48,268 nt of DNA from Chromatiales bacterium (GTDB lineage: Bacteria; Pseudomonadota; Gammaproteobacteria; Thiohalomonadales; Thiohalomonadaceae), in contig QKFD01000047.1 of the NCBI GenBank assembly GCA_003251535.1, positions 1 to 48,268 of the forward strand, written 5' to 3'. The translations under genes were made by a program, and so were the position numbers. Under the pieces are notes generated by a model, which saw nothing but the letters and a program-made list of their open reading frames with translations, was not told the origin of the DNA and searched no databases. Numbering within the stretch: the stretch's first letter is position 1; each line of letters starts with the position of its first letter. Of the stretch, positions 5,086-18,849 are shown piece by piece.

Positions 5086-5805
5086 ATGACCGAGAATACG
5101 CACGCTCAGCACGCACGCCCCTCTTTCAGCTCTGCTCGCGCCCAGTGGCGCAGGGGGGCGGTGGCGCTATTTAGTCTGGTGACGTTGGGGGGCAGCGGAA
5201 CGGCGTTGGCCTGTTCGGCCGAACCCCTTATCGGCTCCGTCTGCTTTATGGCCACGGACTACTGTCCACAGGGCTATGTGGAGGCCAATGGCCAGCTGTT
5301 GGCGATCACGCAATATCAAGCGGCCTACGCCCTGTTCGGTACGATGTTTGGCGGCGATGGTCACACTACCTTTGGGGTTCCCGATCTAAGGGGGCGCAGC
5401 CCTGTCGGGGTGACCGCTAACACCACTTCTGGTGATACCCCGATCTCTGCCGTCGCACGCGGGGCGTTGCGTGGGCAGGAGCAATCTAAACTGCAAGCGG
5501 CCAACCTGCCCCCGGCTGGTGAGTCCGGTGATGCGGCCACGGTACAAGCCACCACCTCGCCAGGCACCACTGACATACCGAGCGCCACCGTTCAGTTGGC
5601 CAAACCGCTGCTGACTGGGCGCGACGCCGGGAGTGCCTATATCTATGCCCCCATCGGTGGCACCCAGGTGGCGCTGGGCGGTGTCTCCGGTGGAGGCTCC
5701 AGCTCCGGTGGTACCAGCGCCCCCTTCACCAATCTCCCGCCCCAGATTGCCCTCCGCGCCTGCGTTGCCCTGGATGGCACTTGGCCGACTCGCCCAACCT
5801 ATTGA
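5086..5805 (+). CDS. Secreted phage-tail-collar domain protein (microcystin-dependent-protein type)
   Basis: The start at 5086 (MTENTHAQHARPSF) is preceded by GGAG at good spacing. A Sec signal is visible (RRGAVALFSLVTLGGSGTALA, residues about 22-44). The mature part has GSVCFMATDYCPQGYVEANGQ, then LFGTMFGGDGHTTFGVPDLRGR, the classic tail-collar fold motif. The glycine/serine-rich C-terminal region ends in PPQIALRACVAL, also typical. Collar proteins are usually trimeric fibres. The signal peptide implies an exported surface or cell-wall role rather than a phage particle, and no phage genes are nearby. Total 239 residues. Confidence 0.85.
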   Translation: MTENTHAQHARPSFSSARAQWRRGAVALFSLVTLGGSGTALACSAEPLIGSVCFMATDYCPQGYVEANGQLLAITQYQAAYALFGTMFGGDGHTTFGVPDLRGRSPVGVTANTTSGDTPISAVARGALRGQEQSKLQAANLPPAGESGDAATVQATTSPGTTDIPSATVQLAKPLLTGRDAGSAYIYAPIGGTQVALGGVSGGGSSSGGTSAPFTNLPPQIALRACVALDGTWPTRPTY

Positions 5806-5838
5806 TGGGGCGGGTGGCCGGAGCGGTAGAGCGGCGAC

Positions 5839-8016
5839 CTATCGGGTGGGTCTCGCCTGGGCCGCTACGTTGACCCTAAGGCGAGGCCGGCCCTCTGTCG
5901 CCTCTTCTGTGGATGGCTCCCCCTTACTCACTGGGTGCGTGGGTAAGGGGGGGCCGCCACTGCCGGCGAGGGCGTTGAGCAGGATACCGACGGTGGTGCC
6001 GTTGTGGAGGATGGCGCTGGCCACCGGTGAGAGGCGCCCGAGCATGGCGCCGGCCAGGATGCCGCTGTTGATGCCGACGGCCAGATTGAAGTTGGTGCGG
6101 ATGAGGCGCATGGTGCTGGCGGCGATGCGGCGTGCCTCCACCAGCGCGGCGAGGTGGTCATCCAGCAGCACAATATCGGCGGTGGCGCGGGCGATGTCGG
6201 CGCCGCGAGGCATGGCGATACCGACATCGGCGGCGGCGAGTGCCGGGCCGTCGTTGACACCATCGCCGACGAAGGCCACCCGTCGCCCGGCCCGCTTCAG
6301 CTCGGTGACAATCTGTGCCTTGTGCTCCGGTTCCATCTCGGCATGGACCTGATCCAGCCCCAGCTCTGCCCCTAGCGCCTCCGCCTTCTGGCGGCGGTCG
6401 CCGGTGATCATCACCAGCTGTTGCACGCCGAGGTGGCGTAGCTGCTGCAAGGTGCTGAGGGCGTCGGCGCGGAGGGTGTCGCGGAGGGCGATGAGCCCCA
6501 CCGGGCCGCTGGCGCTACCGACGTAGAGCAGGGTCTTACCCTCTGCCTGGAGGCGGGCGATGAGCCGTTCGTGGGGGGTGAAACAGATCCCCTCATGTCC
6601 CTCCAGGTAGTGGCGACTGCCGATGAGGATGCGCTCGCCCGCTACACTGGCGGACATGCCATGGGCCACCAGATAGTCCACCTCGCCATGGCTGATGTGT
6701 TGTAGATCGCGCTCCCGCGCCGCCTCCACCACCGCCTGGGCCACCGGGTGGCTGGCGTGCTCCTCCACGGAGGCGACGAGCGCTAGTAGCTGCTGCTCGT
6801 CGCAGCCCCCGCCGCGCAGCGCCACCACGTTGGTCACTATCAGCTCGCTGTGGGTGAGGGTGCCGGTCTTGTCAAAGACGACGGTATCCACCGCCGCCAG
6901 CTGTTCTATCGCCTCACCCCCTTTCAGTAGCAGACCGCTGGCCGCGGCCCGATACATGGCCGACTTGAAGGCGATGGGGGTGCCGAGTTTGAGGGCGCAG
7001 GAGTAGTCCACCAACAGGACCGACTCCAGGCGACGCAGGTCGCGGGTCAGGGCGTAGGCGAGACCGCCGGTGGCAAGGGTGATGTAGACCCGCTTGTCCG
7101 CCAGCTGATCGGCGAGCCGCTGGGTGGGTGAGCGCTGCCCGAGGGAGTCGCGGATAAAGCTGGCCACGCGGGCGGTGGTGGTCTGCTCTCCCACCTGAAG
7201 CGCCTCGATCCGCAGCCGCCCCTCCACCACCACGCTGCCGGCCACCACCCGCCGCGGCGCCTCCTTGCGGACCGGCAGCTGTTCGCCGGTGACGGCCGCC
7301 TGGTTGACTAGGGCGGTACCGCTGATGACTCGACCATCGACGGCGATGCGTTCACCACTGCCGACGACGACGATATCGCGCTCCTGTACCTCGCTGTCGG
7401 GGAGTTGTACCAGCTCGCCACCCCGCTCTACCCAGGCCAAGGTGGGCTCTGGCCGCAGCAGACGGCGCAGCATCTGGTCTGACTGGCGGGCGGTGCGCCG
7501 CTCCAGGTACTCCCCCAGTGCCAGCAGCAGGCCGGTGATGGTGGCGGTGTAGTGTTCGCCGCGAGCGGCGGCGAGGCCCACTGCCACGGCATCTAGCACC
7601 TCCATTTTGACGCCGTGGTTGATGAGGGTCTCCGCCCCCTTGGCCAGGGTACCGCCGACACTGGCCAAGGTGAGCAGCCGCTGGGCCGAGCTTGGCAGGA
7701 GGGGTAGCGCCGCCAGGGTGGCGACGCTACTCACCAGCGGGCCGATGGTCGGCTCCTCCTCCTCTGCCTCACCGGTGGCGGCGGCCTCCGGGCGGAACTG
7801 CTGTAGGCGCTGGAGGAGGGCGTGACGGGTGGTGGGCTGCCCGTCGTGCATCACAATGAGGCTGAGGGCGGGGCGGCTGATGCGTACCTCGCGCACCCCA
7901 GCCACCCCCTCCATCCACAGCTCCAGGTAGGCACTGCTGAGGCTGCCATCCCCCAGTTGGGGCAGGCGGAAACGGATGCGATCAGGCAGCTCATGGACGA
8001 CGCTGAAGCGGCTCAT
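5839..8016 (-). CDS. fezB: P1B-type metal ATPase, P1B-6-like (FezB-like)
   Basis: 725 residues. Residues 5-75 form an HMA-like domain with HELPDRIRFRL in place of the usual CxxC. The core shows the actuator TGEQLP (243-248), the membrane metal motif SCALKLGTP (339-347), the phosphorylation site DKTGT (Asp382), the HP motif (423-424) and the GDGVNDGPAL hinge (584-593). SCA instead of CPC/SPC is the mark of P1B-6 ATPases. FezB of ferrosome clusters belongs to that group and is linked to iron loading of intracellular membrane-bound granules. It is the last gene of a seven-gene minus-strand operon and its ATG overlaps the previous stop (ATGA). The ATPase class is sure; iron as cargo and the fez name are inferred from family and context. 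Confidence 0.85.
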   Translation of the reverse strand: MSRFSVVHELPDRIRFRLPQLGDGSLSSAYLELWMEGVAGVREVRISRPALSLIVMHDGQPTTRHALLQRLQQFRPEAAATGEAEEEEPTIGPLVSSVATLAALPLLPSSAQRLLTLASVGGTLAKGAETLINHGVKMEVLDAVAVGLAAARGEHYTATITGLLLALGEYLERRTARQSDQMLRRLLRPEPTLAWVERGGELVQLPDSEVQERDIVVVGSGERIAVDGRVISGTALVNQAAVTGEQLPVRKEAPRRVVAGSVVVEGRLRIEALQVGEQTTTARVASFIRDSLGQRSPTQRLADQLADKRVYITLATGGLAYALTRDLRRLESVLLVDYSCALKLGTPIAFKSAMYRAAASGLLLKGGEAIEQLAAVDTVVFDKTGTLTHSELIVTNVVALRGGGCDEQQLLALVASVEEHASHPVAQAVVEAARERDLQHISHGEVDYLVAHGMSASVAGERILIGSRHYLEGHEGICFTPHERLIARLQAEGKTLLYVGSASGPVGLIALRDTLRADALSTLQQLRHLGVQQLVMITGDRRQKAEALGAELGLDQVHAEMEPEHKAQIVTELKRAGRRVAFVGDGVNDGPALAAADVGIAMPRGADIARATADIVLLDDHLAALVEARRIAASTMRLIRTNFNLAVGINSGILAGAMLGRLSPVASAILHNGTTVGILLNALAGSGGPPLPTHPVSKGEPSTEEATEGRPRLRVNVAAQARPTR

Positions 8017-8153
8017 CGCTCTCCACCGCGCCGCTGGCCGAGTCCCATCGCCTTACCAAAGAGGTAGAAGAGGCCCACGGTGGCCAGGGCGCCGATCAGC
8101 CAGCGATCGCGTTTGGGCGGCCGGGCCGCCCGGGTCGTTGCCTTCTGCCCCAC
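8013..8153 (-). CDS. 46-residue single-span membrane protein
   Basis: A frame starting at GTG 8153, five bases after the upstream stop, encodes a basic N-terminus (KATTRAARPPKRDR), one hydrophobic helix (WLIGALATVGLFYLFGKAMG) and a basic tail (QRRGGER). Its TGA overlaps the ATPase start as ATGA, so translation is probably coupled. It fills the only gap in an otherwise packed operon and shares the I/V-G-A pattern of the other small proteins. A candidate accessory subunit of the ATPase. It may be missed by gene callers because of its size and GTG start. Confidence 0.6.
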   Translation of the reverse strand: MGQKATTRAARPPKRDRWLIGALATVGLFYLFGKAMGLGQRRGGER

Positions 8154-8158
8154 AGTGA

Positions 8159-8590
8159 TCACTCGCCGGTCTCGCTATGACCGGCCTGTAGCTCTGCCTC
8201 CGCATCATGGAAGCGCTCTTTGAGTTCGGCCAGGCCACCTTGGAGCAGACTCCAGGCCTTGACCGCCCCCTTGATGGCGCTGGTCTGCACCTGTTCGTTA
8301 GTGAGCAGATAGGCAGCGGCGGCGCCGATGGCGAGCCCTTTGAGGAAGCGGTTGCTGGGCAGCAGGCTGCTGCTGGCACTGCTATTGGGCGCAGCCGGGT
8401 AGCCGGGAGCGGCGGGATAGGCCGCTGCCGCAGGGTAGGCGGGGGCTGAGGGATAGGCGGGTGGGTAGGGCTGAGTCGGTGGCGTTACGGGCTGCCCATA
8501 GGGGTAGCTGGGGTAGCCGTTGGGGGTCGCCGCCGTCTGAGGGTGGGGGCCGTGGGGGGCCGGAGCGGTGGGGGGATAGGGATAGTACAT
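8159..8590 (-). CDS. Pro/Tyr/Ala-rich small membrane protein, ferrosome-cluster accessory
   Basis: 143 residues. Residues 1-70 are low-complexity (Pro, Tyr, Ala, Gly with repeated YP/YPAA units) and look disordered. A hydrophobic span FLKGLAIGAAAAYLLTN follows, then an amphipathic charged helix (LAELKERFHDAEAEL). The span motif recurs in the gene at 9144-9734. GGAG lies about nine bases before ATG 8590. The C-terminal helix loosely resembles DUF5132/YtxH-type small proteins, but I cannot assign a family. Operon position suggests a membrane-shaping or scaffold role next to the ATPase; that is inference. Confidence 0.75.
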   Translation of the reverse strand: MYYPYPPTAPAPHGPHPQTAATPNGYPSYPYGQPVTPPTQPYPPAYPSAPAYPAAAAYPAAPGYPAAPNSSASSSLLPSNRFLKGLAIGAAAAYLLTNEQVQTSAIKGAVKAWSLLQGGLAELKERFHDAEAELQAGHSETGE

Positions 8591-8640
8591 GGCAAATATT
8601 CTCCAGTTGTTCTCTATTGGCGGAAGGCCGTGGTTGACGG

Positions 8641-8823
8641 CTACTTCCCGTCCTGGGAGGGGGCGGTTGAGGGTGTGTCGGCGGAGCTGGCTGCCGCGGG
8701 GCGTTTGAAGAGGTTGGCGAGTAGTAGCAGTGCCGCTGCACCCACCACCAGACCGCCCGCCAGGTCGAATAGGTTCTTCTTCACGCCGTGGTGGTGCATG
8801 TAGCCACCGCTATTGGTCGCCAT
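8641..8823 (-). CDS. 60-residue His-containing single-span membrane protein
   Basis: The N-terminus MATNSGGYMHHHGVKK carries a short histidine cluster that could bind metal. One membrane helix (DLAGGLVVGAAALLLLANLF) follows, then a Ser/Ala-rich tail. The start overlaps the end of the upstream gene by 14 bases. The helix has the same V/I-G-A-A-A-x-L-L core as its operon neighbours. Function unknown. Confidence 0.7.
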   Translation of the reverse strand: MATNSGGYMHHHGVKKNLFDLAGGLVVGAAALLLLANLFKRPAAASSADTPSTAPSQDGK

Positions 8824-9151
8824 GCCTCGCCTCCTGCTGCGTCCAGTGGTGGAAGCCGTAGAGCAGGGCGGCGCCGCTGGCCAGCATCACCCCGAGGCGC
8901 GCCACCCCCTGCTCCGTCACCGTATTGGCCAGGGCGCCGGCGGTGGCGGTGGCAACGGCGCTGGCCACCGCGGTTCGGCCACTCTCCCAGAGGGCCGGGC
9001 CGAGCGTGGTGTGACCGCTCTGGACAGCGTGCAGCTCACGGGCCAGGGCCACTGAACCGCCCACCACTGCACCCAGGGTGGCCAGCTGCATCACGGCAGC
9101 GCAGCCATCGGCGGCTGCCGGGGGGTAGGGGGTGTAGTAGGGATCACTCAT
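8810..9151 (-). CDS. Small membrane protein with two or three hydrophobic segments
   Basis: The likely start is ATG 9151 (MSDPYYTPYPPAAADG), because it matches the Pro/Tyr-rich N-termini of the neighbours; ATG 9178 would add nine basic residues inside the upstream gene. The 113-residue product has hydrophobic Ala/Gly-rich helices (MQLATLGAVVGGSVALA, AVASAVATATAGALANTV, GVMLASGAALLYGF) and an acidic His-containing end. It overlaps the preceding gene by eight bases. No recognised family; operon context suggests a ferrosome-type membrane component. Confidence 0.7.
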   Translation of the reverse strand: MSDPYYTPYPPAAADGCAAVMQLATLGAVVGGSVALARELHAVQSGHTTLGPALWESGRTAVASAVATATAGALANTVTEQGVARLGVMLASGAALLYGFHHWTQQEARHGDQ

Positions 9152-9734
9152 GGCTCGCTTCCGGGCTGTTACCGCCAAAGGCGCGGCTCACCCCCTGCTT
9201 GGCCTTGGCGCCGGTACGGAATAGCGCCTGTTGTACCCCGCTGTTGGTCAGGAGCAGGACCGCGGCGGCGCCGATGGCGGCCCCTTTCCAGAATTCGGTA
9301 TCGCTGAAGTCGATCAGCCGACTGAGGCTGGTCAGGGCGGAGTCACTGGCTGTGCCCTCGCTGGCGGCAAGCGGGCGGCCTGGCGCATAGGCGTTCGGCG
9401 GCGGTACTCCGTTGGCAGGGGCTGGGGCGGCGTGGCCATGGCCCCAGGGTGGTGGGTAGCCCATGGGCGGATGGCCGGCCCAGTGGGGGCCAGCTGGGTA
9501 GGGCTGGCCCTGCGGCGGGAGCTGGCCGACGGGGAGCGGTTGGGGTGCCCAGGTGGCCTGCTGTTGGCCCGGCTCGTAGGGTGGCGCACCTTGTGGCAGG
9601 GGGGCGCCACCTACGCCCGCGGTGGTCTCGGTGGCTGGTTGCGGGGCAGCGGCCATGCCGCCTTGGCCATAGGCGGCGCCGGTGGCTCCCCCTGTGGGGG
9701 GGGCGCCAGCGGCGCCGTTGTTGTGGTCACTCAT
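9144..9734 (-). CDS. Gly/Pro-rich small membrane protein, paralog-like to 8159-8590
   Basis: 196 residues. Residues 1-130 are rich in Gly, Pro, Ala, Gln and Tyr and should be disordered. Then comes FWKGAAIGAAAVLLLTN, nearly the same span as in the 8159-8590 protein, and a basic C-terminal helix (GAKAKQGVSRAFGG). It has the strongest ribosome site of the operon (AAAAGGAGGT, about seven bases before ATG 9734), which suggests an abundant product. A low-complexity tail on a small membrane anchor resembles the design of organelle-surface proteins, but no known family can be named. Confidence 0.75.
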   Translation of the reverse strand: MSDHNNGAAGAPPTGGATGAAYGQGGMAAAPQPATETTAGVGGAPLPQGAPPYEPGQQQATWAPQPLPVGQLPPQGQPYPAGPHWAGHPPMGYPPPWGHGHAAPAPANGVPPPNAYAPGRPLAASEGTASDSALTSLSRLIDFSDTEFWKGAAIGAAAVLLLTNSGVQQALFRTGAKAKQGVSRAFGGNSPEASHE

Positions 9735-9748
9735 GGATAGACCTCCTT

Positions 9749-10105
9749 TTAAGGGTGGGTGGGATCAGATGCTTTGGGCGAGGTGTCGGGGGGCGCTGGC
9801 CTTAGGTAGTGCGTCAGCAGTGCCTGCGCCTCATCGTCGCTGCCATGGATCAGCTGCTCCCAGAGATGGCTGGGGAGCTGGGTTGGGTCGTAGTGGATGA
9901 CGGCGGTGGCGGCCGCGGCATTGATGCGGATCTCGCCAATCCCGGGGAGCTGGCCCACCGCCGTGCGCATGGCGCCGGTATCGAAGCCGCGCAGGCGTTG
10001 CAACAGCGGATTGGTGAGCCGCAGCCGTATCCGCCCCGGCAGATGGTGGGCGATGGTGAGGTGGCGGCGCAGGGCCAGTAGGTCGCTGTTCGGTTGTGGG
10101 TCCAT
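9749..10105 (-). CDS. HMA-like (HMA_2-type) protein with LPGRIRLR motif
   Basis: 118 residues. It has HHLPGRIRLRLTNPLL, GIGEIRINAAAATAVIHYDP and a charged Pro-rich tail. The fold pattern is that of heavy-metal-associated domains, but the CxxC metal site is replaced by the LPGRIR loop, as in the N-terminus of the ATPase at the operon end. It is the first gene after the divergent Fur-like region. It is probably a partner or regulator of the ATPase; HMA-like proteins with a GR motif occur in ferrosome clusters. Whether it equals FezC cannot be decided from sequence alone. Confidence 0.75.
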   Translation of the reverse strand: MDPQPNSDLLALRRHLTIAHHLPGRIRLRLTNPLLQRLRGFDTGAMRTAVGQLPGIGEIRINAAAATAVIHYDPTQLPSHLWEQLIHGSDDEAQALLTHYLRPAPPDTSPKASDPTHP

Positions 10106-10191
10106 GGTGGGGCTCGGTACTTGGGGTGGTGGAGTCTTACCCGGTGGTGGCGGGTTCAGCGGGCCTTAGCCGGGGGGAATAGGATGTCGCC

Positions 10192-10210
10192 GTATAAGCT
10201 AATCATTATC
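10192..10210. promoter_or_regulatory. Candidate Fur box
   Basis: GTATAAGCTAATCATTATC matches 14 of 19 positions of the Fur consensus GATAATGATAATCATTATC, including the last ten without a break. It sits midway between the two iron operons, so both could be repressed by Fe-Fur. Confidence 0.65.
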
Positions 10211-10278
10211 ATTTGCTTGTGCAAGAGGGCGATATTCAGCGACTACCCCCTTGCATCCGAGGGGCACAAAGGATATAC

Positions 10279-10297
10279 AATGCGAACTGTTCGCATT
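10279..10297. promoter_or_regulatory. Perfect 9-1-9 palindrome, Fur-family-like operator
   Basis: AATGCGAACTGTTCGCATT is a perfect inverted repeat 28 bases before the plus-strand HMA-like start. Its layout equals the Fur-family 19-mer AATGAGAATTATTCTCATT (15 of 19 positions match). It could be a second Fur site or that of another metalloregulator. Confidence 0.5.
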
Positions 10298-10324
10298 TAG
10301 TTTCCGATTTTGGAGAGCTTACCC

Positions 10325-10654
10325 ATGTACGTCCACCACGTTCCCGGCAGATTGCGGATCAGCCACGTCAGCTTCCGCTGTGCGCCGGCCAGGGCCGAGG
10401 CCCTGGTCGCCCTCCTTGACGAGGTGGCAGGGGTGCGCTCTGCCGCCATCAACCCCAAGGCCGGCAGCATCACCATCCACTACGACCCGCAGCGCCAGAG
10501 CCGGGCCGGGCTGCTGCTGCTACTGGAGCAGTACGGTTGTCTCGGGGTGGATCGGCCGGCCTCGGCCGCGGGTCTGGGTACCCTGTTTGGGCGGGCGTTG
10601 ATGGGGGCGTTGGCCCAGCGCACCGCCCACTCCATCGTGGGAGTGATCCTCTGA
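10325..10654 (+). CDS. HMA-like (HMA_2-type) protein with VPGRLR motif
   Basis: The start ATG 10325 (MYVHHVPGRLRISH) follows GGAGAG by seven bases; an upstream TTG frame start at 10310 is less likely. 109 residues: an HMA-like fold (HHVPGRLRIS, GVRSAAINPKAGSITIHYDP) and a hydrophobic C-terminal segment (LFGRALMGALAQRTAHSIVGVIL). The CxxC site is missing, as in the divergent homolog. Its stop overlaps the feoA start (TGATG). Being first in the feo operon suggests it links iron uptake with the neighbouring ATPase. Confidence 0.75.
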   Translation: MYVHHVPGRLRISHVSFRCAPARAEALVALLDEVAGVRSAAINPKAGSITIHYDPQRQSRAGLLLLLEQYGCLGVDRPASAAGLGTLFGRALMGALAQRTAHSIVGVIL

Positions 10655-10917
10655 TGGTGCTGGGGAACGAGGCAGTTCAGGGCGAGCAGCACCCCTTTCC
10701 GCTGGCGATGGCGGGGGAGGGGGAGGCGCTGCGGATCGTCGGTTTGCGGGCTGGGCGCGGGGCCGATCGGCGCCTCACCGAGCTGGGTCTCAATGTGGGG
10801 ACTGAGGTGGTGGTGCGGCAGCGGCAGCCGGGAGGTGGTCTGGTGGTAGGGCGGGGTGAGGTGCGTCTCGCCCTGGGGGGCGGTATGGCCCACAAGATTT
10901 TGGTGATCCGCGCCTGA
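10654..10917 (+). CDS. feoA: FeoA-type SH3-like protein (first copy)
   Basis: The start ATG 10654 overlaps the previous stop. The 87-residue product has EALRIVGLRAGRGADRRL, TELGLNVGTEVVVRQRQ and GEVRLALGGGMAHKILV, the SH3-like barrel of FeoA, an activator or partner of FeoB. The region before residue 15 is not conserved. It is followed by a second feoA-like gene, then feoB. Regulation is probably by the divergent Fur-like region. Confidence 0.88.
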   Translation: MVLGNEAVQGEQHPFPLAMAGEGEALRIVGLRAGRGADRRLTELGLNVGTEVVVRQRQPGGGLVVGRGEVRLALGGGMAHKILVIRA

Positions 10918-10948: not shown

Positions 10949-11185
10949 ATGAGTATGCGTCTGAAAGAGTTGGCCGTTGGTGAGCGGGGCCGGGTATTGG
11001 GGTACGACGCGGGGGGGCGGATCTATCGCAAGAAACTGCTCTCCATGGGGCTGACGCCCGGTACCGAGTTTGCCGTGGTGCGCTGCGCCCCGATGGGCGA
11101 TCCGCTGGAGCTGCGGGTGCGCGGTTTCGCCCTCAGTGTGCGCAAGGAGGAGGCGGCGGCGCTACTGGTGGAGCGGCAGCCGTGA
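10949..11185 (+). CDS. feoA: FeoA-type SH3-like protein (second copy)
   Basis: The start ATG 10949 (MSMRLKELAVGERGRV) has AGGAG eight bases upstream. 78 residues with RKKLLSMGLTPGTEFAVV, PMGDPLELRVRGFALSVRKEEA, a textbook FeoA. This copy is closer to the standard family pattern than the first. The feoB GTG start overlaps its stop (GTGA), indicating coupling. Two FeoA proteins before FeoB occur in various bacteria. Confidence 0.92.
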   Translation: MSMRLKELAVGERGRVLGYDAGGRIYRKKLLSMGLTPGTEFAVVRCAPMGDPLELRVRGFALSVRKEEAAALLVERQP

Positions 11186-13533
11186 GCGCCGCCTACACCA
11201 TCGCCCTGGTGGGCAACCCCAACTGCGGTAAGACCACGCTGTTCAATGCCCTCACCGGCTCCAAGCAGCAGGTGGGTAACTGGCCTGGGGTCACCGTCGA
11301 GCGCAAGGTGGGTTACTACCGCCACGCCGACGGCCAGGTGGAGGTGGTGGATCTGCCGGGCACCTACTCCCTGGATGTGACCGATCACGCCATCTCGCTG
11401 GATGAGAAGATCGTCCGGGACTTTGTCCACGCCAGCGAGGCCGATCTAGTCGTCAACATCATTGATGCCTCCAATCTGGAGCGCAATCTCTACCTCACCT
11501 CGCAGTTGGTGGAGAGTGGCACGCCGCTGGTGGTGGCGCTCAACATGATGGATGTGGCCGCTGAGCGCGGTATGAAGGTCGATGTGGCGCAGCTGGCGGC
11601 CACCCTGGGTTGCCCAGTGGTGCCGCTGGTGGCGGCCGCTGGCCAGGGGGTGACCGATCTCAAACAGCTGCTCCAGCAAGCGGCCGCCCGCCCGCCCCAT
11701 CCCACCGCGGAGATCCGCTACGACAACGAGTTGGAGCGGGCCATCGCCAGCCTGTCGCCGCCGCTGGAGGCGGTGGCCAAGAGCCATAAGACCCCGCTGC
11801 GCTGGCTCATTGTCCGACTACTGGAGGGGGACGATTTGGCACTGCGCCTGGCCACCGAGGCGCTCGGGAGCCGACGCGACGATATCCTCCAACCGCTGCA
11901 CGAGGCGCTGGGGGAGGATATCGACATCATCGTGGCGGATGGGCGTTATGGCTTCGCCAACCGGGTGGCGCAGACGGTGGTGCAGCGCCAGGGGGAGATG
12001 GGCCGGGACCTGACCGATCGCATCGACCGGGTGGTACTCAACCGCCTCTTTGGCATCCCCATCTTTCTGTTCGCCATGTATCTGATGTTCATGCTGACCA
12101 TCCACATCGGCGGCGCCTTTATCGACTTCTTCGATATGTTTGCCGGCGCCCTGTTTGTGGATGGCTTGGGGGCGCTGCTCACGGCGGCCGGTGCCCCGGA
12201 GTGGTTGACGCTACTGCTGGCCGATGGGATCGGTGGTGGCATCCAGGTGGTGGCCACCTTCATCCCGGTGATCGGTTTCCTCTACCTGTTCCTCTCGGCG
12301 CTGGAGGACTCCGGCTATATGGCGCGGGCCGCCTTCGTCATGGATCGCTTCATGCGTTGGGTGGGTCTGCCGGGCAAGTCGTTTGTACCGCTGATCGTCG
12401 GTTTTGGCTGTAATGTCCCGGCCATTATGGCCACCCGTACCCTGGAGCATCAGCGCGATCGCATCATGACGGTGGTGATGGCGCCATTCATGTCGTGCGG
12501 GGCGCGGCTACCGGTCTATGCGCTGTTTGCCGCCGCCTTCTTCCCGGTGGGGGGGCAGAACGTGGTCTTCGGGCTCTACCTCATCGGGATTGCCGTGGCG
12601 ATCCTGACCGGCCTGCTCCTAAAGCACACCCTGCTACAGGGGGAGGCGACCCCCTTTGTCATGGAGTTGCCGCCCTACCACCTGCCCACCTGGAAAGGGG
12701 TATCCCTGCGCACCTGGGACCGCTTGAAGGGGTTCATTGTCCGTGCCGGGCGGGTGATTGTGCCGATGGTGCTGGTGCTCAACGTCCTTAACGCAGTGGG
12801 GACCGATGGCAGCTTCGGCAATGAGGAGAGTGACAACTCTATCCTCAGTGAGTTGGGCCGTGACCTCGCGCCGCTCTTCTCGCCCATGGGGCTCAATGAG
12901 GAGAACTGGCCTGCCACCGTGGGGATCTTCACCGGTGTGTTGGCCAAAGAGGCGGTGGTGGGCACCCTCGACGCCATGTACACCGCCTTGGCCGAGGGGG
13001 ATGCCGCGGCAGCGGGCGAGGCGACCGAGGAGGCCCCCTTTAACCTGACGGCCAGCATCGGGGCCGCCTTTGCCACCATCCCGGCCAACCTGACTGACGC
13101 CGTGGCGACCTGGGCCGATCCCCTCGGCCTGAGCGTGGGGGAGATCGAGTCGGTGGATGGTGCGGCCGCCGAACAGGGGGTGGCTACCGGTACCTTCGGG
13201 GCGATGGTGGCGCGCTTTGATGGCGCAGCAGGCGCCTTCGCCTATCTGCTCTTCATCCTGCTCTACGCCCCCTGTGTGGCGGCCATCGCCGCGGTCTATC
13301 GTGAAACCAGTGCCGGTTGGACGCTGTTTGTTGCGGGTTGGACCACGGGAGTCGGCTACGCCACGGCAACGCTCTTCTATCAGGTGGCCACCTTCGCCCG
13401 CCATCCGCAGGCGTCGATGGGTTGGATTGCGGGGATCGTGCTGGTGCTGCTGGGGCTGTTTGTCGGTCTGCGGTGGTGGGTCCGGCGGCGGGTAGGGCTG
13501 TTGGGCGAGCCACTGCCCTCTTGTGCACAGTGA
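11182..13533 (+). CDS. feoB: Ferrous iron transporter FeoB
   Basis: 783 residues, GTG start. The N-terminal G domain has GNPNCGKTT (11-19), DLPG (57-60) and NMMD (121-124). A GDI-like helical part follows, then about ten membrane helices with the Gate motifs around FGCNVPAIMATRTLE and MSCGARLPVY, and LAKEAVVGTLD. FeoB moves Fe(II) across the inner membrane and needs GTP hydrolysis. The length is normal for the family; a negatively charged Ala/Glu-rich stretch (AEGDAAAAGEATEEA) is a loop insert. Co-transcribed with feoA and feoC. Confidence 0.97.
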   Translation: MSAAYTIALVGNPNCGKTTLFNALTGSKQQVGNWPGVTVERKVGYYRHADGQVEVVDLPGTYSLDVTDHAISLDEKIVRDFVHASEADLVVNIIDASNLERNLYLTSQLVESGTPLVVALNMMDVAAERGMKVDVAQLAATLGCPVVPLVAAAGQGVTDLKQLLQQAAARPPHPTAEIRYDNELERAIASLSPPLEAVAKSHKTPLRWLIVRLLEGDDLALRLATEALGSRRDDILQPLHEALGEDIDIIVADGRYGFANRVAQTVVQRQGEMGRDLTDRIDRVVLNRLFGIPIFLFAMYLMFMLTIHIGGAFIDFFDMFAGALFVDGLGALLTAAGAPEWLTLLLADGIGGGIQVVATFIPVIGFLYLFLSALEDSGYMARAAFVMDRFMRWVGLPGKSFVPLIVGFGCNVPAIMATRTLEHQRDRIMTVVMAPFMSCGARLPVYALFAAAFFPVGGQNVVFGLYLIGIAVAILTGLLLKHTLLQGEATPFVMELPPYHLPTWKGVSLRTWDRLKGFIVRAGRVIVPMVLVLNVLNAVGTDGSFGNEESDNSILSELGRDLAPLFSPMGLNEENWPATVGIFTGVLAKEAVVGTLDAMYTALAEGDAAAAGEATEEAPFNLTASIGAAFATIPANLTDAVATWADPLGLSVGEIESVDGAAAEQGVATGTFGAMVARFDGAAGAFAYLLFILLYAPCVAAIAAVYRETSAGWTLFVAGWTTGVGYATATLFYQVATFARHPQASMGWIAGIVLVLLGLFVGLRWWVRRRVGLLGEPLPSCAQ

Positions 13534-13557: not shown

Positions 13558-13794
13558 ATGATACTGTCGCAGTTGAGTCGTCACCTCGAACAGCAACGTC
13601 GGGTCGCCTTGGCTGATCTCGCCTGCCGCTTCGGCACCTCGCCCGATGCGGTGCGGGGGATGCTCAGCGTCCTAGAGCGCAAGGGGCGGGTGCGCAAGGT
13701 GGCCCTGAGTGGCGGTTGTAGTAGTGGCTGTTGCAAGTGTGATCCGGTCGCACTGGAGGTGTATGAGTGGGTGAACACAGAGCTGGAGCACTAG
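13558..13794 (+). CDS. feoC: FeoC-like winged-helix protein with four clustered cysteines
   Basis: 78 residues. The first part is a winged-helix pattern (ILSQLSRHLEQQRRVALADL, PDAVRGMLSVLERKGRVRKV). It ends in GGCSSGCCKCDP, with Cys54, 58, 59 and 61, the Fe-S-binding position of FeoC. FeoC is thought to regulate or stabilise FeoB. GGGGAGAGGG lies before ATG 13558. The next gene starts one base after its stop. Confidence 0.9.
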   Translation: MILSQLSRHLEQQRRVALADLACRFGTSPDAVRGMLSVLERKGRVRKVALSGGCSSGCCKCDPVALEVYEWVNTELEH

Positions 13795-13795
13795 G

Positions 13796-14791
13796 ATGAG
13801 CGAATGGGCCCACGATCTCCGCTCTTGGCAGCACTCCCACGAGTTTGGGCTCGATCGGGAGCAGGGGGCGGAGCGGCGTACCCGCTACGTGGTCTTGCTC
13901 ACCTTCGTCACCATGGTGGTGGAGTTGGCGACCGGCTGGTGGACCGGCTCCATGGCGCTGCTGGCCGATGGTTGGCACATGGGGAGCCACGCGGCCGCCC
14001 TCGGCATCAGCGCCTTTGCCTACGCCTTCGCCCGACGACGGGCGGGTGATCGGCGCTTCACCTTTGGCACCGGCAAGGTGCCGGTACTGGCCGGCTTCTC
14101 CAGCGCCCTGCTGCTGGGGATCGCCGCCCTCTGGATGGCCGTAGAGTCTTTGCAGCGGCTGGTGGAGCCAGTGACCATCCACTATGCGGAGGCGATGGCG
14201 GTGGCGGCACTGGGGCTGCTGGTCAACCTCGCCAGCGTCTGGCTGCTGGGGCATGGTGACGATGGCCATCATCACCACCATCATCATGACCATGACCATG
14301 ACCATGACCATGACCATGACCATGACCCCCATGCCGTCGATCACAACCTGAAGGCGGCCTATCTCCATGTCTTGGCGGACACCTTCACCTCGCTGCTGGC
14401 AATCGTGGCGCTGGGGGCGGGGATGGGGCTGGGTTGGACCTTCCTGGATCCACTGATAGGTCTGGTGGGGGCCGCGGTCATCGCCCGCTGGGCCTGGGGT
14501 CTGGCGCGGGAGTGTGCCCAGGTGCTGCTGGACGCCGAGGACCACGGGGCGACTGCACAGCAGATCCGCGGGTTGATGGCGGCGGAGCCGGACTGCGAGG
14601 TGGCCGATCTCCACCTCTGGCGCGTGGGGCCGGCCAGCCGGGCCTGCATCCTCTCGCTGGTGACCCACCGGCCCGCCATGGTGGAGCACTACCGTCGGGT
14701 GATCGGTGCGATCCCAGGGATTGATCACCTGACCATTGAGATCAACGAGTGTCGCCACCAACAGTGTTTAGATCAGTTGGATAAGTCGTGA
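13796..14791 (+). CDS. CDF-family metal transporter, DmeF-like, with His/Asp repeat loop
   Basis: 331 residues, six membrane spans. SMALLADGWHMGSHAAALG and HVLADTFTSLLAIVAL carry the two HxxxD-type metal sites of cation diffusion facilitators. The start (WAHDLRSWQHSHEFG) and span 2 resemble DmeF (Co/Ni exporters). The loop between spans 4 and 5 has seven histidines then seven Asp-His steps. Its place after feoC is unusual for DmeF and suggests iron or manganese as cargo, either export or loading of an internal store. Substrate is inference. The C-terminal cytosolic domain (EVADLHLWRVGP) is normal. Confidence 0.88.
   Translation: MSEWAHDLRSWQHSHEFGLDREQGAERRTRYVVLLTFVTMVVELATGWWTGSMALLADGWHMGSHAAALGISAFAYAFARRRAGDRRFTFGTGKVPVLAGFSSALLLGIAALWMAVESLQRLVEPVTIHYAEAMAVAALGLLVNLASVWLLGHGDDGHHHHHHHDHDHDHDHDHDHDPHAVDHNLKAAYLHVLADTFTSLLAIVALGAGMGLGWTFLDPLIGLVGAAVIARWAWGLARECAQVLLDAEDHGATAQQIRGLMAAEPDCEVADLHLWRVGPASRACILSLVTHRPAMVEHYRRVIGAIPGIDHLTIEINECRHQQCLDQLDKS
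14285..14326 (+). repeat. Seven tandem CATGAC hexamers coding for (His-Asp)7
   Basis: Seven perfect copies of CATGAC in frame. Such a pure hexamer array is prone to slippage, so copy number, and with it metal-loop length, may vary between strains. Confidence 0.9.
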
Positions 14792-14833
14792 GGCGGGCGA
14801 CGGTGCCTGCCCACACCTATGTAAGGAGTCCCT

Positions 14834-15394
14834 GTGTCGACATCGTTGGCTACGGTATTGAGTGAGGCGTTGGATGATGAGTACAAGGCGCGGGCCACCT
14901 ATTACCAGGTGTTGCGCCAGTTCGGGCCTGTGCGGCCATTTACCAACATCGTGCAGGCGGAGGAGCGCCATGTGCAGGCGCTGCTACCACTGTTTGCCCG
15001 CTATGGCGTGAGTGTGCCGGCGGATCGCTGGGCCGGATCGGTGGCGCCGCTTGGCTCACTGCTGGAGGCAGCACAGCTCGGTGTCAGCGCCGAGATCGAG
15101 AATGCCGCGCTCTACCAGCGTCTTCTGGCGGCCACTGCCACCTACCCCGATGTGCAGCGGGTGCTGCGTAACCTGCAACGCGCCTCCCAGGAGCACCATC
15201 TACCTGCCTTCCAGCGGGTGGTGGCCCGCTACTCCCAAGGGCGGAGTGAGCGCTATGCCGCCCCCCTACTGCCCGCTCTCACCCCCTGGTCCAGCAGCAG
15301 AGGTGGCGATGCTGTCGATAGTGGTTGCGGCGGCCATCGGCATGGCGCTGGTTGGGGGGGTGGTGGGGGCTGCGGTAGACGCGGGCGTTGGTAA
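14834..15394 (+). CDS. Ferritin-like DUF2202-type protein
   Basis: GTG start with AAGGAG upstream (the preceding in-frame ATG is followed by a stop). 186 residues. Residues 8-145 form a four-helix bundle pattern with DDEYKARATYYQVLRQFG, VQAEERHVQALLPLF, SAEIENAALYQRLL and ASQEHHLPAFQRV, giving Glu/His ligands for a di-iron site. The tail is Gly/Cys/His-rich (HRHGAGWGGGGGCGRRGRW) and looks unlike a folded domain. Another frame over the tail also codes well; see findings. Probably an iron oxidase or store working with Feo. Confidence 0.8.
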   Translation: MSTSLATVLSEALDDEYKARATYYQVLRQFGPVRPFTNIVQAEERHVQALLPLFARYGVSVPADRWAGSVAPLGSLLEAAQLGVSAEIENAALYQRLLAATATYPDVQRVLRNLQRASQEHHLPAFQRVVARYSQGRSERYAAPLLPALTPWSSSRGGDAVDSGCGGHRHGAGWGGGGGCGRRGRW

Positions 15395-15416
15395 GCGTAT
15401 CCCTGACACCAATTAG
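15309..15416 (+). CDS. Possible 35-residue membrane peptide overlapping the DUF2202-type gene
   Basis: In the frame overlapping the end of the previous gene, ATG 15309 opens MLSIVVAAAIGMALVGGVVG, a Gly-zipper hydrophobic helix, ending GKRIPDTN at 15416. AGGTGG lies too close to the start for a good ribosome site. It may be real, the original C-terminus after a frameshift, or chance. It resembles the small-span proteins of this island. Confidence 0.3.
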   Translation: MLSIVVAAAIGMALVGGVVGAAVDAGVGKRIPDTN

Positions 15417-15437
15417 ATCCCAGACAGGAGAGATCCC

Positions 15438-15689
15438 ATGCCTTTCCCTCTAATACCCCTGTTGATCGGGGCCGCCGCCGGTGCGGTGACCACCTACCTG
15501 ATGATGGATGAGTCGGGGCGGCGCCAGCTGCGCGAGAAGGCGGGCAGTGTGCCGGCCCGTTTCCGCACCACTCCAGCCGCGGCTGAGGAGCCGTCCGAGA
15601 CGGCTCCTGTGGAGAAGGTGGTGGTCGCTGAAGAGCCGGCCGTGGAGCGCTCCACGGCCACTGACGCGGCGGCAGAGCGGCCCGACTAG
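15438..15689 (+). CDS. Small single-span YtxH-like membrane protein with acidic tail
   Basis: 83 residues. GGAGAG lies before ATG 15438. One membrane helix (PLIPLLIGAAAGAVTTYLMM) with a GAAAGA glycine-zipper, then a short basic part (SGRRQLREKAG) and an Ala/Glu/Pro-rich acidic tail. The helix design matches the small proteins of the divergent ferrosome-like operon, although it is at the end of the feo operon. Function unknown. Confidence 0.75.
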   Translation: MPFPLIPLLIGAAAGAVTTYLMMDESGRRQLREKAGSVPARFRTTPAAAEEPSETAPVEKVVVAEEPAVERSTATDAAAERPD

Positions 15690-15691
15690 CA

Positions 15692-15746
15692 CGACGCCCC
15701 ACCGGCCTGCTCCCCTGCGCCGGGGCAGGCGGTGGGGGCGGCGTCA
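15692..15746. terminator. Long imperfect hairpin between convergent genes
   Basis: CGACGCCCCACCGGCCTGC pairs with GCAGGCGGTGGGGGCGGCGTC with small bulges; an inner CCCC/GGGG stem closes it. It lies exactly between the ends of the feo operon and the bacterioferritin operon and has no T-run. It may block read-through in both directions. Confidence 0.5.
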
Positions 15747-16214
15747 GCTCATTTGTGACTGGAGGTAGTTGCCCAGGCCTATCTGATCGATGAGGCGGAG
15801 CTGGGTCTCTAGCCACCAGGTGTGATCCCGCTCGGTGTCGTCCAGCATCTTCTGTAGGATGCCGCGGGTCACATAGTCTTGCACCGATTCGCAGTAGGCC
15901 ATCACCTCCCGCAGGTGGTTGATCACCGTCAGCTCCAAATCGAGATCGGCGCGCAACATGGAGGGGACATCGTGGCCGACGTGCAGCGGGGTGCGCTGGC
16001 TGAGATCGGGGCTGCCCTCCAGAAACAGGATGCGCTGGATCAGGGCATCGGCGTGCTCCTGCTCCTCCCCCATCTCGTGCTTGGTGTGTTCATAGAGCTG
16101 CCGATAGCCCCAATCCTGGTACAGGCGGGAGTGGGCAAAATATTGGTCCACCGCAGTCAACTCGCCGGCGAGCAGCTGCTGAAGATGGTGGATGACGGTG
16201 CTATCCCCCTTCAT
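15744..16214 (-). CDS. bfr: Bacterioferritin subunit lacking the heme-ligand Met52
   Basis: 156 residues, clear Bfr pattern ([19 protein letters not shown]). Ferroxidase ligands Glu18, Glu51, His54 and Glu94 are present; the last Glu/His pair sits in DDTERDH with one extra residue versus E. coli Bfr. Position 52, Met in heme-binding subunits, is Gln. Such subunits store iron but cannot bind heme in the usual way and often form mixed 24-mers with a Met52 partner. Its ATG overlaps the stop of the Met52-bearing gene upstream. Confidence 0.93.
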
Positions 16215-16687
16215 GACGCCTCTCCCATCTGCGACTGGAGGTAGTTTTGGATACCGACGCTCTCCATCAGCGCGAGTTGGGTCTCCAACCAGTCAACATG
16301 CTCCTCCTCGTCTTCGAGGATCTCCTGTAGCAGATCGCGGGTCACGTAGTCCTGCACCGACTCACAGTAGGCGATCGCCTCTCGCAGGGGCGCTAACGCC
16401 GCCAACTCCAGCTTCAGATCGAGAGAGAGCATCTCCTGCGGGTGCTCTCCTACCATCAGCTTGCCCAGGTCTTGGAGGTTGGGGAGACCTTCGAGGAAGA
16501 GGATGCGCTCGATCACCTCATCGGCGTGTTTCATCTCCTCAATGGACTCGTGGTAGGCCCTCTTGTTGAGCGCCTGGTAGCCCCAGTTTTTGTACATCCG
16601 GGCGTGCAGAAAGTATTGGTTGATGCCGGTCAACTCATTGGTCAGCACCTGGTTGAGGTAGCTGATGACCTTGGGATCCCCCTTCAT
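16211..16687 (-). CDS. bfr: Bacterioferritin subunit with heme-ligand Met52
   Basis: 158 residues, very close to E. coli Bfr ([36 protein letters not shown]). Ligands Glu18, Glu51, His54, Glu94, Glu127 and His130, and heme-ligand Met52, are all present. Bfr oxidises Fe(II) and stores the mineral in a 24-subunit shell, with heme helping iron release. It is the first gene of a two-gene operon; a Fur-box-like site lies about 220 bases upstream. Confidence 0.96.
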
Positions 16688-16908
16688 GTGTCACTCCTCG
16701 GTAGGCGCGCTGAGTGGGCCCAGCGGCGGATCACGCTCCGGCCCGAACGCCCGCGGTGTGTCGAGCGGATGATGGGCGTGGCGACGGTGGTACAGGCCCC
16801 CACGCTAGATGATGGTGGGGAGATAAAACGTATAGCTCGCCCCATAGGGGCGTGCTGCCTCTATGGGGCGGAGGCGGCTGCTATTGTGCCACATTTACAA
16901 TATGAAAT

Positions 16909-16927
16909 GAGAAGCCATATCATTATC
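16909..16927. promoter_or_regulatory. Candidate Fur box upstream of the bacterioferritin operon
   Basis: GAGAAGCCATATCATTATC matches 13 of 19 Fur consensus positions, with a perfect CATTATC end. It lies between the 3' end of oxyR and the bfr genes, and could act on bfr directly (Fur can activate Bfr genes) or be a remnant. The flanking 263-base interval has no gene. Confidence 0.45.
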
Positions 16928-16950
16928 ATGATGGCGAGATCCCATGGGGG

Positions 16951-17865
16951 CTACTGCCCCGAGGGGGTCGGCTGGAGCGCTTGGATGGTCTCCCCTAGGG
17001 TGCGAAACGCCTCGGCCCGGGCCGAACCGCGGCGCCACGCCAGGGCGATGGTGCGATGGGGGTGGTTGTGCAGGGGACGGGTGGTGATATGGGTGCCGGT
17101 GAGTAGGCTGGAGCCCACTGCCATCTGCGGCAGGAAGGTGACACCGAGGTCGCTCTCCACCATCTGGAGTAGGGTGAAGAGGGAGGTGGCGGCAAAGCGG
17201 CTCACCGTCTCTGCCTCCCGCAGCCGGCACGCCTCGATGGCGTGGCCGCGTAGGCAGTGCCCCTCCTCCAGCAGTAGCACGCTATCGGTCGGGAGGGTGG
17301 TGGGATCGATGCGCTGCGGATCGAGCCGCTCGGTCCCCTCGTGGTAGGCGAGTAGAAAGGGGTCGTCGAACAGTGGCATCACCTCCGCCTCGCGCAGGTC
17401 GTAGGGGATGGCGACCACGATGAGATCAACCCGCCCCTCCAGCAGCTCTTCGTGCAGCCGTTCGGTCATCTCCTCGCGCAGGAATGGCTCCAGCTTGGGG
17501 TAGTGCTCGCGTAGGCCGGGGAGTACCCGCGGTAGGAGAAAGGGGGCGATGGTGGGGATCACGCCGATCCGCAGGGCCCCTGCCAGCGGCTCGCGCCCGG
17601 CCCGTGCCTCGTCAACCAGGGCGTTCAGCTCCTCCAGGACCCGCCGTGCGTGGATCGCCACCGCGTGCCCGACGGGGGTGACGGTGACCCGGCGCGGGGT
17701 GCGATCCACCAGGCTGACGCCCAAGGTCTCCTCCAGCTCCCGGATGGCGAGGCTGAAGGCGGATTGACTGACAAAACAGCTGGCTGCGGCGCGGCCGAAA
17801 TGGAGCTGCTCGGTGAGCGCCACCAGGTAGCGCAGGTGTTTGACGGTGGGGAGCTGTTGGGCCAT
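16951..17865 (-). CDS. oxyR: LysR-family peroxide regulator OxyR
   Basis: The start ATG 17865 (MAQQLPTVKHLRYLVALTEQ) aligns with the E. coli OxyR start; ATG 17910 would add 15 residues, and neither has a good ribosome site. 304 residues. HTH: HFGRAAASCFVSQSAFSLAI. The redox pair is in GHCLRGHAIEAC (Cys204 and Cys213), matching the Cys199/Cys208 pair that forms a disulfide on peroxide. OxyR would activate defence genes; the divergent DUF2061-dps-prx genes are likely targets. Confidence 0.93.
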   Translation of the reverse strand: MAQQLPTVKHLRYLVALTEQLHFGRAAASCFVSQSAFSLAIRELEETLGVSLVDRTPRRVTVTPVGHAVAIHARRVLEELNALVDEARAGREPLAGALRIGVIPTIAPFLLPRVLPGLREHYPKLEPFLREEMTERLHEELLEGRVDLIVVAIPYDLREAEVMPLFDDPFLLAYHEGTERLDPQRIDPTTLPTDSVLLLEEGHCLRGHAIEACRLREAETVSRFAATSLFTLLQMVESDLGVTFLPQMAVGSSLLTGTHITTRPLHNHPHRTIALAWRRGSARAEAFRTLGETIQALQPTPSGQ

Positions 17866-17910
17866 AGCGGGGTGGGGGTGGCGTGGGTCGGTGTTGAGCG
17901 GGTGCCCCAT

Positions 17911-18064
17911 CTTAAGCCATGGCCAAGGGCCACCGATGCCCCGCAGTGAATTCTATTTTTTAAATCGCTGCCTTTAGAACAATCAATTTCACTAAACATT
18001 GGATGGCCGCCATACTCTGTTCCAACGACCACCCACTAGACCGCTTACCGAGAGGAACACCGCG
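17911..18064. promoter_or_regulatory. Divergent oxyR / DUF2061-dps promoter region
   Basis: A 150-base A/T-rich gap with tracts such as CTATTTTTTAAATCG near 17950. An OxyR site is expected here by context, but I could not align the full four-part ATAGnt motif with confidence. Confidence 0.4.
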
Positions 18065-18286
18065 ATGGCCAAGACACTTTCATTCGCTGCCGTCCACTTT
18101 TCCGTTGCCTTTTCGGTGGGTTACGCCATGACGGGGAGTGTTGCCATCGGCGGCGCCCTCGCCTTGGTGGAGCCGGCGGTCAACACCGTCGCCTACTTTT
18201 TCCACGAGAAAGTATGGGACTATTTCCGGCGCCAGCGGGGCGTTACTGCGGAGCGCACGGAATACCTTCCCATGCACCACGCCTGA
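18065..18286 (+). CDS. DUF2061 membrane protein
   Basis: 73 residues from ATG 18065, preceded by AGAGGA. It has [20 protein letters not shown] and [19 protein letters not shown], the hallmark of DUF2061 (two membrane helices ending in a His-Glu-Lys-x-Trp motif). Function unknown. Upstream of dps and divergent from oxyR, so it may belong to the peroxide response. Confidence 0.88.
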
Positions 18287-18308
18287 CCTACGACAAAGGA
18301 GAGACGCC

Positions 18309-18782
18309 ATGAGCAGCAATATCAATATCGGGATTGCCGAGGCCGATCGAGTGGCTATCGCGCAGGGTTTGTCACGCCTGTTGGCCGATACCTACACCCT
18401 CTATCTGAAGACCCATAACTACCATTGGAACGTCACGGGGCCGATGTTCAACACCCTCCACCAGATGTTCATGACCCAGTACACCGAGCTGGGCTTGGCG
18501 GTGGATGAGATCGCTGAGCGTATCCGCGCCCTGGGTGAGTTTGCCCCGGGCTCCTATCGCGCCTACTCCACCCTCACCTCCATCCAAGAGGAGGAGGAGG
18601 TGCCGGCGGCAGAGGAGATGTTGCGCCGGCTGGTGCAGGGGCAGGAGGCGGTGGTGCGCACCGCCCGGGAGCTATTCCCCACGGTGGAGGAGGCCAACGA
18701 CCAACCGACGGCGGACCTGCTCACCCGGCGGATGGATATCCACGAGAAGACCGCCTGGATGCTGCGCTCCATGCTCGGCTGA
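18309..18782 (+). CDS. dps: Dps-family DNA-protecting ferritin-like protein
   Basis: 157 residues from ATG 18309 after AAAGGAGAG. The interface ferroxidase ligands are His39 ([10 protein letters not shown]), His51, Asp66 and Glu70, with the same 12-15-4 spacing as E. coli Dps (His51, His63, Asp78, Glu82). The 12-mer uses H2O2 to oxidise Fe(II), protecting DNA. It lacks the long Lys-rich N-terminal tail of E. coli Dps, so direct DNA binding is uncertain. Likely part of the OxyR regulon. Confidence 0.95.
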
Positions 18783-18849
18783 TAGCCGGGGGCGCAGGTA
18801 GCGGAGCCGGCGGTGGTAGACCAACGTTAATCAATGCAGGAGATGAGTC

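Follow-up and report, generated by a model that had tools for sequence, protein, structure and literature searches.

A predicted ferrosome operon in a Chromatiales bacterium encodes a distant homologue of the magnetosome protein MamC

What is the purpose of seven tightly packed genes that end in a P1B-type metal pump and lie back to back with genes for ferrous iron uptake? The question is raised by contig QKFD01000047.1 of a Chromatiales bacterium (assembly GCA_003251535.1), which we analysed over 48,268 nucleotides (hereafter called the window). Judged from sequence, the seven genes are probably a gammaproteobacterial-type ferrosome (fez) operon, which, with the divergent gene d1 counted in, comprises a common six-gene set and two mini-membrane proteins and would be controlled by iron jointly with feo. 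Operons of this kind build bacterial granules that store iron, and MamC is a membrane protein of the magnetosome, a magnetic organelle found in other bacteria. Gene content, conservation, the P1B-6 marks of the pump, a Fur-like site and the homology of one small protein to MamC were observed directly. We count homology, motifs, conservation, Fur-like sites and the co-location with feo for the ferrosome reading. An earlier account of this DNA, made from its letters and a list of open reading frames (the sequence-only reading), had already called the operon ferrosome-like. That label stands, because the pump groups with FezB-type pumps and many genomes keep the operon.

The pump and its operon

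The seven open reading frames, g1 to g7, encode proteins of 118, 196, 113, 60, 143, 49 and 725 residues and run along the minus strand from 10105 to 5839. A gap of 14 nucleotides separates g1 from g2 and one of 50 nucleotides separates g4 from g5; the remaining four junctions overlap by 8, 14, 4 and 4 nucleotides. This tight spacing gives the operon a layout like that of a single transcript, and chance reading frames are ruled out because other genomes keep the identical gene order. No sigma-70-type promoter was found in positions 5700–10400 (0.2 expected), and the same interval holds one terminator-like site, compared with 1.8 in shuffled sequence. By hydropathy, g2, g3, g4 and g6 each have one or two stretches of membrane-like character and g5 falls below threshold, though the measure under-calls Ala/Gly-rich proteins here: even the pump shows just two stretches.

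The sequence-only reading described most of this layout correctly. It placed a P1B ATPase with the motif SCALKLGTP at the end of the operon, and g7 indeed carries DYSCALKLGTP. It counted five small proteins between the first and last genes, which is the right number, and gave their sizes as 46–196 residues, where the actual range is 49–196. It also set the operon directly divergent from feo. The feo genes are divergent, but the nearest gene is d1, which heads a plus-strand run of feoA, feoA, feoB and feoC, followed by a His-rich cation-efflux gene.

The protein encoded by g7 matches P1B heavy-metal models and carries LHNGTT in addition to its SCALK-type motif. SCA-type motifs mark P1B-6 pumps. 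The pattern xCxxK..TP is found in 80 of 85 FezB-type pumps (65 start SCA and 15 start AC), and the remaining five have SCALK or SCAVK and another residue in place of the T of TP. All 85 have HNxxT, and 83 lack CxxC in the first 100 residues. The HN motif is a P1B-6 feature (PMC9374683; this and the other papers are cited from excerpts). The phylogeny that the sequence-only reading had proposed was answered in part. In a quick tree of 91 rows, g7 and 83 other FezB rows, gathered by their likeness to FezB, split with support of 99 (Shimodaira–Hasegawa-like approximate likelihood ratio test, SH-aLRT) from seven other P1B pumps, namely three CPC-type pumps of the same genome and four plasmid pumps, with no named P1B-2, P1B-4 or proven FezB protein among the rows. 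The neighbours of g7 come from metagenome-assembled genomes (MAGs), one of Thiosymbion and one gammaproteobacterial, among purple-sulfur-type rows. Motifs and tree grouping together support the assignment of g7 as a FezB-type P1B-6 ATPase.

At the other end of the operon, g1 was said to be HMA-like with LPGRIR in place of CxxC, and this is what we find. The protein is HMA_2-like (PF19991, 29 bits, E value 1.2e-6; Pfam cut-off 30), has zero cysteines and carries HHLPGRIR where CxxC would be. HMA_2 is matched at E 0.01 by all 25 aligned g1 and d1 proteins, and their HHxPGRxR stretch contains one invariant His and two invariant Arg. The presence of PGRxR in place of CxxC across the aligned proteins makes loss of CxxC a family trait. 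Two further small proteins, g2 and g5, are paralogous (hhalign 98.8%, E 1.2e-16) and share an architecture in which a Pro-rich head is followed by a short glycine-zipper helix. YtxH (PF12732) is matched by 6 of 24 g5 relatives and not by the window g5, and Pfam gave no consistent family for g2, g3 or g4. The claim that the five small proteins belong to no nameable family fails for g3, whose relationship to MamC was missed, and for g2 and g5, which are relatives of each other.

How might these genes be controlled? The intergenic region between fez and feo contains a Fur-box-like site, a sequence match with two mismatches in 14 positions. The whole window holds two sites with at most three mismatches compared with 0.36 expected, and two or more are also seen in 5 of 100 shuffles. 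Among 78 fez operons, that of the window and 77 more, 26 have a site with at most three mismatches upstream, whereas dinucleotide shuffles predict 2.2, in a count that treats related loci as independent. A near-perfect palindrome stands just before the d1-feo run. Its pattern, AATGCGAA-N3-TTCGCATT, occurs once in the genome, at 10279–10297, and is possibly a second operator for an unnamed regulator.

By analogy with known systems we infer iron specificity, transport direction, vesicle formation and the roles of all of the proteins. Low iron would lift Fur repression, so that feo (for uptake) and fez (for storage) are produced together. The Pro-rich glycine-zipper proteins g2 and g5 and the MamC-like g3 would then crowd with the pump into membrane patches or vesicles. 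Once iron returns, FezB would carry ferrous iron from the cytoplasm to the vesicle lumen, and an iron granule would result. With no CxxC, the g1 and d1 proteins may serve for docking or regulation and not as chaperones of the copper type.

The same parts could instead build a metal efflux platform, in which small proteins cluster the P1B pump in the cytoplasmic membrane for export of iron or another metal, with no organelle. We consider this unlikely. Its model is PacL1, a small one-helix protein of the DUF1490 family that is needed for CtpC levels and is found with CtpC in membrane foci; DUF6110 small proteins likewise accompany P1B-6 pumps (PMC9374683). The window resembles the PacL-CtpC pair in having one-helix small proteins encoded next to a P1B pump that, like CtpC, has an HN motif, and g4 and g6 are similar in size to PacL-type proteins. 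However, no window protein matches DUF1490 or DUF6110 at E 1. CtpC has CPC and exports zinc (PMC9374683), unlike g7 with its SCALK-type motif, and CPC is also retained in a Rhodococcus pump that is 39.7% identical to FezB and is preceded by a DUF1490 gene. Moreover, both the MamC link and the position next to feo favour iron storage, and a Fur-like site would turn the operon on in low iron, which would suit an iron exporter poorly. The Rhodococcus gene pair deserves a note of its own: on the plasmid concerned (L121, 127–2617) the PacL-type gene lies directly before the FezB-like pump, which has both CPC and HN, and this is the arrangement described for CtpC.

Conservation, spread and known systems

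A scan of the GTDB genome collection with the FezB core (tblastn, E 0.001) gave 443 relatives among 478 candidate stretches. Our locus counts rest on the best 80 of these 443, some of them cut by contig ends, with genes called by profile. Most numerous among the carriers are purple sulfur bacteria together with MAGs of similar kind, and bacteria of the enteric, Vibrio, Ferrimonas and Shewanella type; the operon type is also seen in Thiothrix, Competibacter, Methyloligella and others. FezB was called in 78 loci, g5 in 70, g3 in 69, g2 in 67, d1-type HMA genes in 59, g1-type HMA genes in 50, g4 in 25 and g6 in 5, counts that are approximate in that HMA genes (g1 or d1) and Pro-rich genes (g2 or g5) were sorted softly by best score and some g5 genes carry the g2 label. 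When eight short or contig-cut loci were set aside post hoc, g3 was present in 66 of 72 loci compared with 69 of 80.

The commonest pattern, in 27 of the 80 loci, has six genes: a divergent d1, then g1, g2, g3, g5 and FezB. The window operon is this set, d1 included, with g4 and g6 added. The sequence-only reading had seen an unusually large set of genes and a variant organelle system. Most of that view has to be given up: the extra genes are restricted to g4, whose homologues are mostly in Chromatiaceae and similar MAGs, and g6, and both occur elsewhere. We therefore reject a unique seven-gene organelle system, since six of the eight genes belong to the common set. The search it had suggested for the same seven-gene order was successful, as the full order g1 to g7 is present in three of the 80 loci (L046, L051 and L062). 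In two of these, L051 and L062, g1 to g7 are followed by an HMA gene, FeoA and FeoB. Of the 80 loci, 15 have FeoB within the flanks fetched around FezB, which reach up to 8 kb.

Six genes is also the size of the fez operon of S. putrefaciens. In Rhodopseudomonas palustris six fez genes (RPA2333–2338) make ferrosomes (PMC12016538); the likeness to the common set is one of number, not sequence, and the window differs in having two more small genes and one HMA gene that is divergent and joined to feo. For Clostridioides difficile two proteins are named as required for ferrosomes, the membrane protein FezA and the transporter FezB, and Fur represses both (PMC12574912), whereas the window has seven to eight proteins, in a comparison made without sequences. 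The fez cluster of Desulfovibrio magneticus has a FezB-type transporter that we liken to g7 by name alone. Its FezC is akin to DUF4405 cytochromes, and the FezC of Desulfurispirillum binds haem b (PMC11334425). The genome that contains the window has DUF4405 matches outside the operon, one of them over the cut-off, and 9 of 14 control genomes match as well. A cluster of the D. magneticus type, with FezC in the operon, was rejected for want of a DUF4405 match among the operon proteins.

At E 1e-110, FezB was found in 2 of 369 genomes of the window's class: its own and G264. This rarity near its own lineage, together with the scattered carriers, suggests that the operon spread by horizontal transfer. 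Could the acquired operon be a relic that no longer works as a ferrosome system? We regard this as very improbable. None of the 94 other genomes searched has FezB at E 1e-100, and G264 has a broken FezB frame and gave no matches for most of the small genes, but the seven window genes are all open and tightly packed, with gene order and regulatory site retained. The G264 locus (L023, 7960–10637) is a fez remnant downstream of feo, in which FezB is split into frames of 539 and 164 residues; only g5/g6-like small genes were found near it, and sequencing error is possible.

Several points weigh against the ferrosome reading. The ferrosome assignment in this Chromatiales bacterium comes from its genes, and its likeness to the systems of D. 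magneticus, R. palustris and S. putrefaciens is one of gene number or protein name. No protein of the window operon matches DUF4405, the FezC-like family. The 80 loci are those closest to the query, many of them related, rather than a random sample. Nor is g3 universal: FezB is present at E 1e-60 in 8 of 398 Pseudomonadota genomes, and five of these have no g3 match. At E 1e-100 FezB is matched in one of 95 genomes, its own, with 19 same-family relatives included; conservation of the operon in related genomes, whose absence the sequence-only reading had named as refuting, holds for many genomes and not for near kin at this limit.

g3 and the magnetosome protein MamC

Which family does g3 belong to? 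The NCBIfam MamC model NF038051 matches it with E 9.7e-8 and 32.2 bits, under the equivalog cut-off of 100 bits. Run over the 398 Pseudomonadota genomes at E 0.001, this model found 16 genomes, 13 above the cut-off, which we took as true MamC, and three below it; all three sub-cut-off hits, the window g3 included, sit in fez operons. It gave zero matches in 14 control genomes at the same threshold. The converse search agrees. A profile built from the 78 fez g3 proteins alone (the window and 77 others) found, at E 1e-5, the identical 16 genomes at the same places, so that its hits are the 13 MamC genes, the three fez operons and no others. Of the 78 g3 proteins, 71 match MamC at E 0.01, and the next family is matched by just two. 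Comparison of the g3 profile with the MamC profile gave a probability of 99.0% (E 7.2e-18 over 98 columns), and one of 98.4% (E 7.7e-15) with seven sequences. The sole match of the g3 profile in PDB was not significant (E 0.068).

That the likeness reflects glycine/alanine-rich composition with no common descent is hardly credible: the 32 bits of the window g3 and the seven of 78 fez g3 versions without a match to the MamC model at E 0.01 would fit such a view, but at that threshold the MamC profile recovered 74 of 83 real g3 sequences compared with 0 of 83 reversed (best 0.04) and 0 of 830 shuffled ones, the g2, g4, g5 and g6 proteins gave no match to it, the g2 and g5 profiles had no MamC match, and the reciprocal genome searches converged; composition as the source of the match is rejected by the reversed, shuffled and g2/g5 controls.

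The homology of g3 to MamC, as a distant relative, is therefore well supported by sequence comparison. MamC (Mms13) and g3 have a two-helix layout and several positions in common. Across the 83 fez g3 rows and 8 of 9 MamC rows used for the tree and residue counts, the first Gly of the helix-1 GG is kept in 78 of the 83 g3 rows, Lys or Arg precedes helix 2 in 65 and Tyr stands at the end of helix 2 in 77. The Asn after helix 1 is invariant in MamC, where g3 has Asn in 36 rows and Gln in 35. The joint tree separates the two proteins into two groups (support 100/94).

Nevertheless, g3 is not a MamC equivalog, as judged by its score, its acidic pair and its genomic setting. Glu66 and Asp70 of MamC have been tied to magnetite nucleation and templating (PMC6584501). 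The corresponding sites are both acidic in 8 of 8 MamC rows compared with 12 of 83 fez rows, and the window g3 has Pro and Glu there. Because the acidic pair is mostly lost, a mineral-templating role of g3 is unsupported. The setting differs too, in that a MamC equivalog would be expected in a magnetosome gene cluster and g3 sits in a fez operon. The likeliest role for g3 is to set the shape or size of the vesicle by means of its glycine-rich helices, in place of the mineral binding of MamC. A magnetotactic host was rejected: apart from g3, nothing in the genome matches MamC at E 1, and magnetochrome gave no match above the cut-off, a negative that falls short of proof because the genome is 95.6% complete.

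We put forward tentatively, at a little under an even chance, that a membrane component of ferrosomes and one of magnetosomes go back to a common ancestor. On this proposal g3 and MamC would form one iron-organelle family, and MamC may have branched off, as a binder of mineral, from an older ferrosome protein whose original task was the shaping or sizing of iron-loaded vesicles. This order of descent is suggested by the greater diversity of the fez versions compared with the MamC rows and by their occurrence in bacteria that are not known to be magnetic; the joint tree, unrooted and with few columns, does not order the two groups by age. A shared family, if true, would give a concrete handle on the kinship of two iron organelles. 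The g3 result itself supplies a relative for an unnamed fez small protein of purple sulfur, enteric and Vibrio-type bacteria. In the open-access literature, whose coverage leaves out the founding ferrosome papers, we found no paper linking MamC to ferrosomes.

Four of the five g3-negative FezB genomes keep the HMA, Pro-rich and FezB genes, and in the fifth the locus is contig-cut and the FezB frame is split. The g3 match in Azospirillum is weak only. The fez operons L150, L151, L153 and L154 (in genomes G521, G471, G457 and G398) have no detectable MamC-like gene; G398 shares a genus (g362) with G501, which has mamC above the cut-off. Two g3 copies in one fez operon were seen in 8 of the 80 loci (L042, L065, L067, L068, L072, L076, L078 and L079). 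Fez operons with a MamC-like g3 also occur in a Magnetovibrio MAG (L088) and a Magnetospira MAG (L120), both named for magnetotactic genera.

Neighbouring genes

The window places ferrosome genes next to genes for iron uptake and ferritin-domain proteins (see the table).

Table. Features of the fez locus and its surroundings in the window
Feature	Position	Strand	Remarks
g7, FezB-type P1B-6 ATPase, 725 residues, SCALKLGTP and HNGTT, without N-terminal CxxC	5839–8016	-	
g6, 49 residues, single helix, GTG start, outside the six-gene set	8013–8162	-	5 of 80 loci
g5, 143 residues, Pro-rich, FLKGLAIGAAAAYLLTN segment and charged tail	8159–8590	-	g5-type in 70 of 80 loci
g4, 60 residues, single helix, outside the six-gene set	8641–8823	-	homologues in 25 of 80 loci
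g3, 113 residues, two helices, distant MamC homologue	8810–9151	-	NF038051, E 9.7e-8, 32 bits
g2, 196 residues, Pro/Gly-rich, C-terminal FWKGAAIGAAAVLLLTN glycine-zipper segment	9144–9734	-	g2-type in 67 of 80 loci; g5 paralogue
g1, 118 residues, HMA_2-like, HHLPGRIR at the CxxC place	9749–10105	-	PF19991, E 1.2e-6
Fur-box-like site between fez and feo, 2 mismatches of 14	10197–10211		sequence match
Near-perfect 19-bp palindrome AATGCGAACTGTTCGCATT before the d1-feo run	10279–10297		
d1, 109 residues, HMA_2-like, divergent, opens the feo run	10325–10654	+	PF19991, E 1.1e-7
FeoA, first	10654–10917	+	PF04023
FeoA, second	10949–11185	+	PF04023
FeoB ferrous iron transporter	11182–13533	+	PF02421 and FeoB_C
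FeoC	13558–13794	+	PF09012
DUF2202 protein	14834–15394	+	PF09968
Ferritin-domain protein, read as bacterioferritin-like	15744–16214	-	PF00210
Second ferritin-domain protein, read as bacterioferritin-like	16211–16687	-	PF00210

Beyond fez and feo, positions 13558–19584 form an island of iron and oxidative-stress genes. It holds FeoC, the His-rich cation-efflux protein, the DUF2202 protein and the two ferritin-domain genes, together with a LysR-type regulator and a peroxiredoxin-glutaredoxin hybrid. The DUF2202 protein may be an unrecognised fez partner. Its homologues occur in the fetched FezB flanks of 6 of the 80 loci and in one fez operon on an Arcobacter plasmid; among their positions are L054 3164–3559, L071 1147–1512 and L021 4423–4857, and the copy in L054 lies between g5 and FezB.

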